Assembly: GCF_008329945.1 (NCBI RefSeq)
Contig: NZ_CP035807.1
Coordinates: 1,736,001-1,800,000 of the forward strand
DNA length: 64,000 nt
Origin: Thiospirochaeta perfilievii
GTDB lineage: Bacteria; Spirochaetota; Spirochaetia; DSM-2461
Direction: 5' to 3'
Of this stretch, positions 38,936 through 49,703 are shown piece after piece. The notes below the pieces were generated by a model. That model searched no databases and was not told the DNA's origin. It saw only the letters and a program-made list of their open reading frames with translations. Position numbers and translations under genes: made by a program. Each line of letters opens with the position of its first letter. Positions within the stretch are counted from its first letter, which is position 1.

Positions 38936-39437
38936 CTCTTTTTCCAATATCAATAAATTTTTTGTAAGCTTTTTTAGCTTCTCTATTTAATCCTAACTCT
39001 TTTAGGGTATCGCTTAAATTATACCAAGCATCATCATTATTTTCATCTAACTCAACAGAGAGCTTAAAATGGGCCCTGGCACTGTTAAAATCTCCACTTA
39101 GAAAATAACACACTCCTAGGCTGTTTTCGCTATCTGAAGAACCAAACTCTTTAGTTGCTCTTAAAAGAGTCTCTTTCGCTAAGTCTAGCTCGCCCCTATT
39201 AATATAACAGTTTCCAAGTTGGTTTAAATTCTCATCATTAGGGTCTATCTCTACAGATTTAATAAGTAGAGGTATAGCATTTTTATAATAACCCTTTTTT
39301 ATATAGACCAGGGCTAAATTATAATTAACTATAGGGTCATTAGGGTTTTGATTTAAAAGATTTAAAAATAACTCTATAGAACTATCTAACCTACCCTCTT
39401 GAGATAGCCTTATAGCCCTATTATTTGCTTCAGACAC
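38925..39437 (-). CDS. TPR-repeat protein
   Basis: A 170-residue soluble protein made of about four to five tetratricopeptide repeats (e.g. NPNDPIVNYNLALVYIKKGYYKNAI and DPNDENLNQLGNCYINRGELDLAKETL). Such proteins are scaffolds for protein-protein contact. There is no signal peptide. It overlaps sixA upstream (8 bp) and the HAD gene downstream (11 bp), so the three genes are tightly coupled, but no joint pathway is apparent. Confidence 0.85.
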   Translation of the reverse strand: MSEANNRAIRLSQEGRLDSSIELFLNLLNQNPNDPIVNYNLALVYIKKGYYKNAIPLLIKSVEIDPNDENLNQLGNCYINRGELDLAKETLLRATKEFGSSDSENSLGVCYFLSGDFNSARAHFKLSVELDENNDDAWYNLSDTLKELGLNREAKKAYKKFIDIGKRDEV

Positions 39438-39879
39438 TCATATCTTCCACCGGAATAAACTGTAATAATTTATTACTCTCTAAATCAATTTCAGCAAAGC
39501 TACAGTTACCCATAACCTTATTCTGCCCAGTAAGGTCGTATATTAAATTAGATAGCTGGGGATTGTGTCCAACAACAAGAACTGAATCCTCTTTATACTC
39601 ATTAATTTCAACCATCAGATCATCAACAGAAGCATTAGGGGCAACATCCATGCTAATAAATTCCCGAAGGGCACAACTTCCCCCTTCCCTATTAACAATT
39701 GTAAGAGTCTCTTTTGCCCTTACATATGTGGATAACAAGACCACAGAAGGATGAATATTCTTTAAATAACGACCAGCAACTTTAGACTGGGCCATTCCCT
39801 CTTCTGTTAACACACGACTTCGATCACCATTGCTTGAAAATATTTCAGCATCTCCATGTCGTAATAAATAGAGTTTCAT
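39430..39879 (-). CDS. sixA: SixA-type phosphohistidine phosphatase
   Basis: A 149-residue histidine phosphatase (branch 1) of SixA length. The catalytic RHG motif is at 7-9 (LLRHGDAE). The second Arg is in TYVRAKETL and the second His in VVGHNPQLSNLIY. In enterobacteria SixA removes phosphate from His on phosphocarrier or HPt proteins. A protein with an HPr-like domain is encoded about 7 kb away (46389-47879), and two hybrid kinases in the window need HPt partners; either could be a target, but that is inference. Confidence 0.88.
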   Translation of the reverse strand: MKLYLLRHGDAEIFSSNGDRSRVLTEEGMAQSKVAGRYLKNIHPSVVLLSTYVRAKETLTIVNREGGSCALREFISMDVAPNASVDDLMVEINEYKEDSVLVVGHNPQLSNLIYDLTGQNKVMGNCSFAEIDLESNKLLQFIPVEDMSV

Positions 39880-46388: not shown

Positions 46389-47879
46389 TTATCTTCTAAA
46401 ATAGAATAGTTTTTTAGGCAGTGGAATGTTATTTCCATATTTATCCTCTCCATACCCATTTTCCGATAAAAGCTGAATATCATTTAAAGATCTTTTATCC
46501 CCAATAAACTTTACTTTTATATCCATTTTTATATCAATTTTCCCAGAAGCTAACAAAAATGAGATTGAGTTTTTTAAATAATCCTGGGCTGAGTCATTAT
46601 TGCCAATCCCATTTAGTTCAAAATCGTCACTATATATTACAACTAAGTCTTGTTTAGCAAGTGTCTCAATAAGACTTTTTAGCTCTAGTCCCTCTAGTCC
46701 ATTACTATATACATACTCAAAAAGCTTCTTTCTTTTAAGGGCATTTATCTCCTCATTCACTCGAAAAAGCTCTAAGGGAGTAGAAGGGTCATACTCGACG
46801 TTGTTAACAAACATACGAACCTCTCCCCCATAATAATTAATAATTTTTGAAACAAGGGAGGATGGTCTAACGTGAAACCCTCTATATGGAGGGATCGATA
46901 CTGTAACTTCACCAATTTCTGCATAGCTATTTATTACGTCCCGACAAAGCTTCTCTGCCCCATCAAAATACTCAATCAAGTAGACCATAAAAAAGCTAAT
47001 TGTTATCTCTAAAAATCGATCTACAGGAATTGGAAGCAGAGAACTAAAAAAAATGGAGGTCTTTCTTGGAACAATGTGTCTCTCATAGTAGTGAGAAAAA
47101 TCAGTTGCAGACTTTAGCATATGAAAAATAAAACTTATATGCCCCCTTAAAACCTTTAATCTTGAATCTGCTGACTCTATGTCAGACTCTGATAGATATG
47201 TATCGTATAGAGACTGTAGGTTATGAAACCGTACTAAAACAAGTCTTAACTTCTCCTCACTCACACTCTCCGGTATAAAATTCCTGTAATCAGCTTTCTT
47301 TAGATTAGATAGATCATGGAAAAGTGAGAGCTCCGGTTTAAGGTTTAGGAACTCGGTTGCTAAATATATAAGACTTTTCCCTGGATTATCTATATGCCTT
47401 AAGCGTCGATCACGCTCTAATTTTACCATAAAATCTATATCAGAAAACTCTTGAGGATCTATACTCTCAACCCCCTTGCTATGAATTCCACACTTCTTAG
47501 CCCTTTTTACAAGGTAGGATGAGGCTTTAACAATAGCATCATATAGGTCCTCTTTAACCCTTAAGATATCCGATTCAAAGTTATTATCACTTTTAATCAA
47601 TTGATAATTAACAAAGCTATTACTTACATGTAAAACATCGTAGGTAACAGTGGAGAATAGCTTAATAGCAGAGACCCCCTCCCTAAAAGGAAACCATTCC
47701 TCACTATTTCTGGCCCCTACAGAGTCTAGAGTCTCCTCCATCCATGTGGCCTCCATATTTAGCCGACCTAGGAACCGTCTATTTAAAACATACTTCTTAT
47801 AATCTGGGTTAATAGTAAACAGACACAAGCCATATAATCTAACACAATGAGTTGATATAACATCTTTAAAATCAGACAA
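46389..47879 (-). CDS. Large protein with embedded HPr-like domain, function unknown
   Basis: A 496-residue soluble protein. Residues about 324-410 resemble the phosphocarrier HPr: [22 protein letters not shown] places His336 where HPr has its phosphorylated His15 (GLHARPA), followed by [10 protein letters not shown] and a helix. The 320 residues before it are mostly helical and unlike any family I know. The 85 after it may be a small alpha/beta domain. No PTS enzyme is nearby. Starting codon is a TTG at 47879, supported by a perfect AGGAGG five bases upstream. It could be a PTS-linked regulatory protein. SixA is encoded 7 kb away. Confidence 0.7.
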
Positions 47880-47972: not shown

Positions 47973-49703
47973 ATGAGCAATTTAATTTTAATAGTTCTAC
48001 TACTAATATCAAGTCTACCAACCTACACACTTTTTTTCCAACATAAGCTTAGCTTGGTTCCAACAATATTAATAACTTTGGTTTATATAGCTATTTTTAT
48101 TATAATCTTAAAAAGAGACAAAAAAAGAAACCCAACCCTAATTTTAACTACAGAATCCGAAATAAATGAGACTAAGAGTAATTTTTTATCAAATATATCC
48201 CATGAGATAAAAACCCCTCTCAACGGTATTCTTGGCATGAATAACCTGCTATTAATGTCAGATTTAAATAGGGAACAGAGGGAGTTTTCAAAAACAATTA
48301 GCAACTGTGGAGAGTCCCTACTAACAACAATAAATGACATCCTGGATTTTTCAAAAATGATAAAGGGCGATTTAACGCTAGAGAATATTCATTTTGACCT
48401 TAGAAAGCTGTTAAAAGAGTTTTACTCTATGAATCACCTAACTGCAGAGATGAAAGACTTAACTTTTTTATACAGTATTGATAATGAGGTACCAAACTAC
48501 TATAGCGGGGATCCTGGAAGAATAAGACAAATCCTCTCTAACCTTTATAACAATGCTGTTAAGTTTACCAATAAGGGAACAATTGAGTTTAGCTGTAACA
48601 TAATTAAAGAAGATGATAAAAATGCAACTCTGCAGTTTAAAGTCTCAGATACAGGGATAGGTATCTCTAAGGAGAAAATGGAGACACTTTTTAACAGTTT
48701 CTACCAAGGGGACTCCTCCTTAAGCAGAGGTTTTAGTGGAACGGGACTTGGGTTATCAACATCTCAAAAGTTAGTAAAACTAATGGGTGGGGAGATAACT
48801 GTTACAAGCAGTTTAGGTGTAGGGTCAGAATTCACCTTCAACATAGACCTAGAAAAGGGACTTCCCCTTCTTAAACCTAGAAATGGTGTTGATTTATCAA
48901 CAATTCGTGGTCTTATAGTAGACAATGGTGTTGTTAAAAGCTCTAATATTAAAAACTTCTTAAAGGAGCAGACTCAGATCTCCCGAGTTGTAGAGACATA
49001 TGATCTTGCCCTTAATATTCTAAAATTTGAGAGATTTGACTTTATAATTTTCGATTTAAACACCTTCCATTTAGAGAAAGTGAACCTTGAACCTTTTATT
49101 AAACAGTTAAAAACCTTTAACGAATTAAAAATAATAACATTAACCCATGAAGGAACAAGGGGAGATGGAGAACTTTGTCGTAAATTAAATATTGATGGAT
49201 ATTTTTCTCAACCATTTAACCCAAAGATGATTCTTGAAGCAGTCTCTATGATAGTAGGAAAGGAATACAAAGATGGTGAGTTAACAACAATCCACACCCT
49301 TAAAGAGAATCAAAGATCCAAGGTAAATATTCTAGTTGTGGATGATAATACAGTAAACTTAATAATTGCAGAAAAACTACTTACAAAGATGGGGTTTCAT
49401 ATTGGTAAAGCACTAAATGGGGAGGAGGCTATTAAGGAGATTCAAAATAAAAAGTATCATTTAATCTTAATGGATCTACAAATGCCTGTAATGAACGGTT
49501 TACAATGTTCAAACTTAATAAGAAATGAAGAGGCAGGGAATCATAACAAAGATATCCCAATTATTGCATTAACAGCGAATATCTCACTTACAGACAGAGA
49601 GAACTGTAGCAAGGTAGGAATGAATGATTTTTTATCTAAACCCTACAACCCTCAACAGATCGAAGAGAGTATTAACCGTTTTGTCGACTGGGAGAAGTTA
49701 TAA
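47973..49703 (+). CDS. Hybrid histidine kinase with no sensor domain
   Basis: A 576-residue membrane kinase. Two N-terminal helices (about 3-21 and 28-47) are linked by only a few residues, so no external sensor exists. HisKA has His77 in [17 protein letters not shown]. HATPase_c is at about 180-300 ([19 protein letters not shown]). A degenerate receiver follows (about 305-430), then a full receiver (about 448-570) with VVDDNTVN and [12 protein letters not shown]. The same kinase-REC-REC order is found in the kinase at 27102-29759. The input signal may come through membrane state or partner proteins. Confidence 0.9.

Follow-up and report, generated by a model that had tools for sequence, protein, structure and literature searches.

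An HPr-like domain fused to a helical domain in a protein family of spirochaetes

HPr, a phosphate-carrying switch domain, is as a rule a very small free protein that signals the energy state of the cell. PTS regulation runs mostly through free HPr, P-Ser-HPr and EIIA. In Treponema denticola the PTS is reportedly regulatory and without a permease, and the role of such permease-less PTS chains in the phylum is an open question. Three other described systems are relevant to the gene reported below. In the multiphosphoryl transfer proteins FruB/FPr and DhaM, HPr is one domain of a larger polypeptide (PMC2405797), as it is in the protein analysed here. The pts genes of Brucella lie near a two-component system (PMC2937029), and in the SigB cluster of B. 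cereus, which includes a sensor kinase, the HPr-like protein Bc1009 controls a large subregulon (PMC9912610).

The HPr-fusion protein and its family

The 64-kb stretch of DNA analysed here (the window) contains an open frame for 496 amino acids and a stop, whose limits and length were given correctly in the initial annotation; the coding strand, which that annotation lacked, is the minus strand (Table 1). The plus strand of the same interval is full of stops. The frame begins with TTG and is preceded by aggagg, a strong Shine-Dalgarno sequence. The encoded protein contains the stretch RGFHVRPSS with His336, previously read as an HPr-type segment inside a large protein, and this reading is borne out by fold, motif and family conservation. 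When all six frames of the window (127,996 codons) are scanned, G[FILMV]HxRP[SA] is found a single time.

Table 1. Coordinates of the fusion gene, the parts of its protein and two neighbouring genes in the window
Feature	Position	Strand	Basis
SixA phosphohistidine phosphatase; possible, unspecific partner	39430..39879	-	TIGR00249 81.6 bits, cut-off 74.5; synteny in genus only
HPr-fusion protein, 496 aa, TTG start	46389..47879	-	Open frame with Shine-Dalgarno; 38 distinct proteins (orthologues and paralogues) from 32 genomes
Conserved C-terminal tail G-Y-G-E-D-x-x-G-N-N-x-x-L-P-x-x-L-x-Y, residues 475-493	46389..46457	-	38/38 at most positions
HPr-like domain, residues 322-480, with His336/Arg338/Pro339 and ~70 extra residues relative to HPr	46440..46916	-	VIA-align; hhalign
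R373-x-N375-E376-...-K382-R383, new conserved stretch at the place of the HPr Ser46 helix and loop	46731..46763	-	Each residue 38/38
Active-site stretch R-G-F-H-V-R-P-S-x-L with His336, residues 333-346	46842..46883	-	R333-S340 and L342 in 38/38
N-terminal all-helical domain, residues 1-320, predicted as two four-helix bundles	46920..47879	-	AF2 model of this part alone; 38/38 rows
Divergent hybrid histidine kinase (HisKA, HATPase, two receiver domains); possible partner	47973..49703	+	Pfam; homologue beside orthologue in 3/3 genomes of the genus

Taken alone, the protein falls under every curated HPr cut-off. It has no match in Pfam even at E<=10, and in NCBIfam HPr matches residues 325-364 below threshold only (TIGR01003, 12.9 bits against a curated cut-off of 47.9). 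Relatives in two genomes, G293 and G334, just attain the Pfam HPr cut-off (PF00381, 23 bits), and TIGR01003 matches all 15 aligned family members at E<=1, the best at 1.1e-7. The structure prediction proposed as a check in the initial annotation was run with AlphaFold2 on five sequences (pLDDT 81.7, pTM 0.78) and gave an HPr fold for residues 322-480. By VIA-align, 16 of the 50 matches shown for the model were HPr entries aligned to this region (Z 9.1-10.8, rmsd 1.8-2.2); the best, 3lfg_B, had Z 10.8 and an rmsd of 1.9 A, with 84 of 89 residues aligned. A comparison with a profile of spirochaete HPr by hhalign gave a probability of 94.8 and an E of 5.5e-8, as a single comparison, over the first 50 columns. 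The genome has two short HPrs. The second is closer to the fusion, scoring 82 where shuffled sequences average 33 (sd 5.1); HPr1 scores 51 (shuffled 33, sd 5.5). Because the relatives match TIGR01003 and the model aligns with HPr structures, we conclude, from profiles and modelling together, that the protein has a genuine HPr domain.

The fold is complete but is spread over 159 residues for the 84 that align, and an uninterrupted domain of about 85 residues was not found. In the predicted order, strand 1, the active-site loop, helix 1 (339-350) and two strands (354-358 and 361-363) are followed by a long helix (368-392) that replaces the Ser46 helix, an extra segment, a strand (455-461) and a helix (462-474). 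The active-site loop, residues 333-338, which holds His336, has a pLDDT below 50 in the model. The phospho-acceptor site is intact, with His336, Arg338, Pro339 and, at the position of HPr Lys24, Lys345. Residue 367, which aligns with HPr Ser46, is M in 12 family members, L in 11, S in 6, I in 5, T in 2 and K in 2. Serine or threonine is thus present in only 8/38, control by HPr kinase is therefore not conserved, and we rejected regulation through Ser46. The fusion protein is HPr by anatomy, yet a non-standard HPr in its length, its Ser46 position and its profile scores.

With a profile built from 15 members, 24 of the order's 26 genomes were found to carry the family; the remaining two are 71 and 73% complete. 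In a sample of the phylum the family is found in 12 of 392 Spirochaetota genomes (10 of 167 genera), with G033 and G044 counted by fragments only. The genome of the window itself carries a paralogue, absent from the initial annotation, of 515 aa and 36% identical over nearly its whole length. After three identical sequences were dropped from 41 intact proteins, 38 distinct ones from 32 genomes remained, six genomes giving two intact proteins each; fragments from G033 (two pieces), G044 and G402 (a second copy) are outside this set. Most of the 38 rows come from one order, so they are not 38 independent observations; a 15-row alignment over several families has the same conserved core.

P330, Y332-S340 and L342 are identical in all 38 proteins, and Lys345 in 37; R373, N375, E376, K382 and R383, in the new helix, are likewise invariant. 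In the tail, G475, Y476, E478, D479, G482, N483, L487, P488, L491 and Y493 are present in 38/38 and G477 and N484 in 37/38. The N-terminal domain contributes D52, W62, R66, H219, Q222, D226, H263, R267 and H268, again in 38/38. Since the family recurs in 24/26 genomes of the order and 12/392 of the phylum sample with an active site identical in 38/38, the HPr motif of the fusion protein is, on this sequence evidence, not due to chance. In a tree of the family the copies of G074 and G256 are nearest to the window copy (support 100/98); the tree carries a warning of long branches coming together, which applies among others to the grouping of the window copy with that of G074.

The N-terminal 320 residues match no family in Pfam or NCBIfam. 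Modelled alone with AF2 (pTM 0.85, pLDDT 83.6), they form long helices that we read as two four-helix bundles. Against the PDB, Foldseek found nothing for this domain at E<=0.001, VIA-align gave no match over Z 8.4, with mostly designed bundles in its top rows, and a profile of the domain had 0 matches among PDB sequences. A Foldseek search with the whole model returned helical membrane proteins, parasite proteins and others at E >0.06 and rmsd >15 A, which we took as noise. Two CHAD proteins, 6qva and 6rn5, were among the higher Foldseek probabilities for the N-terminal domain (0.77 and 0.60); 6qva aligned with E 0.1 and TM 0.28 and, in VIA-align, with Z 6.7 and an rmsd of 4.6 over 136 residues, amid unrelated helical bundles. 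CHAD helical bundles have conserved histidines. A CHAD profile was absent from the Pfam matches of 15 members at E<=1, and the predicted likeness to CHAD is a lead, not membership.

The N-terminal domain was seen in 12 places, spread over 11 of the 392 genomes; at one of these places a contig end leaves a fragment. Within this sample it was seen exclusively as part of the fusion, and no standalone version turned up. Such exclusive pairing with HPr would fit an effector under the control of the HPr domain. Two strict patterns for the domain, run against the named genome collection, found 4 loci, all in spirochaete MAGs, in a scan that misses some known members and so is no proof of absence elsewhere. 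The family had no match in plasmid sequences, in PHROGs or in viral contigs (none of 14 stretches). A literature search, with most subscription papers outside its coverage, found no comparable HPr fusion reported from spirochaetes. The fusion joins a remodelled HPr to a new domain, and it defines a testable protein family that is without description in Pfam or NCBIfam and is present in 10/10 good-quality genomes of the order.

The PTS of the host genome

The initial annotation stated that no PTS enzymes are close to the gene. This is right for the families searched: genes for Enzyme I, HPr, HPr kinase and EIIA lie elsewhere in the genome, the nearest at about 165 kb. The search for Enzyme I and HPr kinase that it recommended finds both, within a whole and apparently regulatory PTS that the initial annotation did not mention. 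Enzyme I scores 610.7 bits against an NCBIfam cut-off of 341.7; a canonical HPr adjoins the HPr kinase, and a second short HPr is also present. There are seven EIIA domains, of which two stand alone, one follows a DNA-binding HTH, one precedes CBS domains, one is on a Na/H exchanger and two are on amino-acid permeases. The EIIA fusions are located at L049, L051, L052, L184 and L185. These domain arrangements make it likely that the PTS of this genome directly controls transporters outside the PTS. In a search confined to EIIC of the glucose/fructose superfamily (PF02378), as distinct from mannose- and galactitol-type permeases, no match was found, compared with matches in 8/14 control genomes. 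With Enzyme I, HPr, HPr kinase and EIIA fusions present and PF02378 absent, the host PTS is likely to be regulatory rather than sugar-transporting, so far as EIIC of the PF02378 type can indicate.

The gene for the second short HPr (L002:1495-1767 (+), G000 C1 about 561868) is situated about 4.3 kb from that for Enzyme I (L044). This HPr has Asp at the Ser46 position, as does its counterpart in G404 (L180); the residue is Ser in L181, L182 and L183, giving Asp in 2/5 examined. Such an Asp is possibly a built-in mimic of P-Ser-HPr in the genus. In G293 (C16) and G334 (C57) an Enzyme I gene shares the contig with a family member, at a distance of about 20 kb. Enzyme I was found in 35/35 genomes of the listed set, two of which are without the family, and in 370/392 genomes of the phylum sample (12/12 with the family and 358/380 without it). 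Because it is almost universal in the phylum, its co-occurrence with the family is uninformative, and we rejected it as evidence of PTS coupling.

Neighbouring genes and possible roles

The window copy is 93 bp from the divergent hybrid histidine kinase. Each of the other two genomes of the genus has a homologue of this kinase close to its orthologue of the fusion gene, with 50 and 56% identity (551 and 505 aligned residues). In one of these regions (L030:4701-8008) two hybrid histidine kinases lie upstream of the orthologue, one divergent and one in the same direction, overlapping the gene start. The nearest relatives, in G074 and G256, have other neighbours in place of this kinase, and neighbours differ between subfamilies. 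In a number of genera of the order the core copy adjoins metallophosphoesterase and clpB-like genes. We rejected conserved neighbours as a clue to function, the core copy being located in a housekeeping block of argH, a NUDIX-like gene, metallophosphoesterase and clpB (the metallophosphoesterase named by domain scan, the other three from reading the sequence). RNB-ribonuclease neighbours in two lineages were rejected as a shared context, as the ribonucleases are of different types.

Several further neighbours were observed. Second copies in genus g170 (L158, L161, L163) lie directly downstream of a Crp/Fnr-type regulator, at 45 bp, overlapping and at 17 bp respectively (3/3 loci, one of them Pfam-scanned), and converge with a gene that, from its sequence, resembles nicotinate phosphoribosyltransferase. 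In three lineages family members have glycolytic genes next to them: enolase immediately upstream (L031:1726-3024), phosphofructokinase divergent (L166:9136-10233; three loci of one genus) and fructose-bisphosphate aldolase about 1 kb from the G008 copy (L039:9705-10547), a pattern noticed post hoc. In G256 and in G293/G334 (L035, L040, L041) family members adjoin ABC genes resembling those of a zinc/manganese importer, in differing orientation.

We consider it somewhat probable that the fusion is a PTS-phosphorylated switch protein. PEP, through Enzyme I or HPr~P, would phosphorylate His336, and a protein phosphorylated from PEP would thereby read the PEP/pyruvate state. Phosphorylation would shift the HPr domain and the conserved tail relative to the N-terminal helical domain, and the shift might switch that domain's partner contact or else its ligand site, for which H219, H263, R267, H268 and R66 are possible lining residues. 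The HPr surface replaced here by the long helix and the insertion is one that docks EI and EIIA; with part of it replaced, recognition by EI may be lost or changed. Of the genes close to the window copy, the hybrid histidine kinase next to it is the foremost candidate for an output, as a candidate partner only. More tentatively, we suggest that an HPr-derived phospho-switch, rebuilt at the Ser46 helix, directly gates a new two-bundle effector, and that a permease-less PTS controls the physiology of the cell via fusions of both HPr and EIIA; the family would then be a PTS output protein of a new class. If this is true, HPr built into a large effector would be a new output of PEP sensing.

The invariant histidines of the N-terminal domain allow another reading, which we regard as unlikely, namely that the protein is a phosphotransfer enzyme. 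The phosphoryl group of His336 would be passed to H219, H263 or H268, and a compact relay, intramolecular or outward, would be the real output. These three histidines and R267 are invariant in 38/38, and the domain is found only together with HPr, as such a relay would have it. However, neither Foldseek nor VIA-align found a known phosphotransfer fold for the domain, and the same histidines would also suit a ligand or metal site.

The kinase might instead be the key to the protein's role, with the HPr domain taking phosphoryl groups from, or giving them to, a two-component relay, or gating the kinase; this appears distinctly unlikely. The homologous divergent kinase near the orthologue in 3/3 genomes of the genus, the second hybrid kinase overlapping the gene start in L030, and the Crp/Fnr-type regulator that the g170 second copies follow by <=45 bp or overlap are all in its favour. 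In other subfamilies, however, including the nearest relatives, the kinase is not a neighbour. In addition, according to PMC9912610, deletion ruled out the HPr-like protein beside the RsbK kinase of B. cereus as a carrier in the relay of that kinase.

A third possibility, in our view very unlikely, is a docking module of the Crh kind, which would no longer carry phosphate and would have kept its histidine motif for binding EI or another PTS protein. The rebuilt surface around the Ser46 helix and the added insertion are consistent with this. Crh, however, lost the histidine, and G-x-H-x-R-P is here fully invariant (38/38).

A phosphohistidine circuit with SixA had also been suggested in the initial annotation. 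The nearby SixA is confirmed: a SixA gene scoring above cut-off is present about 6.5 kb and several genes from the fusion gene and is kept there in 3/3 genomes of the genus. The genome also has EI and a PTS that looks regulatory. The link between SixA and the fusion is possible but unspecific, as SixA belongs in this genus to an extended run of conserved gene order whose genes are unrelated; at the other family loci examined, SixA scored above cut-off at one (L158), and a weaker, putative homologue was seen at another (L162). In E. coli, SixA removes the phosphoryl group from NPr, an HPr-type carrier, by His-to-His transfer (PMC7948535), so the idea is chemically sound though not specific to the fusion gene; that SixA resets the circuit by dephosphorylating His336 is scarcely probable.

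Comparison with known systems

The PTS-phosphorylated switch that we favour would operate in a setting that has been described elsewhere. The regulatory PTS of Brucella (PTS-Ntr) and, reportedly, that of Treponema denticola comprise EI, HPr, HPr kinase and EIIA with no permease detected, as does the host genome, where the PF02378 type was searched. The accessible part of PMC2937029 reports no HPr fusion like that of the window for these organisms. Similarly, Bc1009 is not described in the accessible part of PMC9912610 as fused to a large helical domain. In its predicted helical bundles with conserved histidines the N-terminal domain may resemble the polyphosphate-binding helical CHAD domain, on a weak Foldseek match (E 0.1). 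FruB/FPr and DhaM differ from the fusion in carrying IIA or EI domains, of which Pfam and NCBIfam detected none in 15 members of the family.

The closest likeness is to HPr itself (PF00381, TIGR01003), with which the fusion has in common the fold, the G-x-H-x-R-P active site and the Lys at the Lys24 position. It also shares G-x-H-V-R-P-S and K-x-I-x-x-Y-G-G-E with the second HPr of the genome (L002). HPr, however, is a free protein of 85-90 residues, whereas its counterpart in the fusion is part of a larger protein, contains some 70 inserted residues and a new R-x-N-E...K-R helix, lacks a conserved Ser46 and has a conserved tail.
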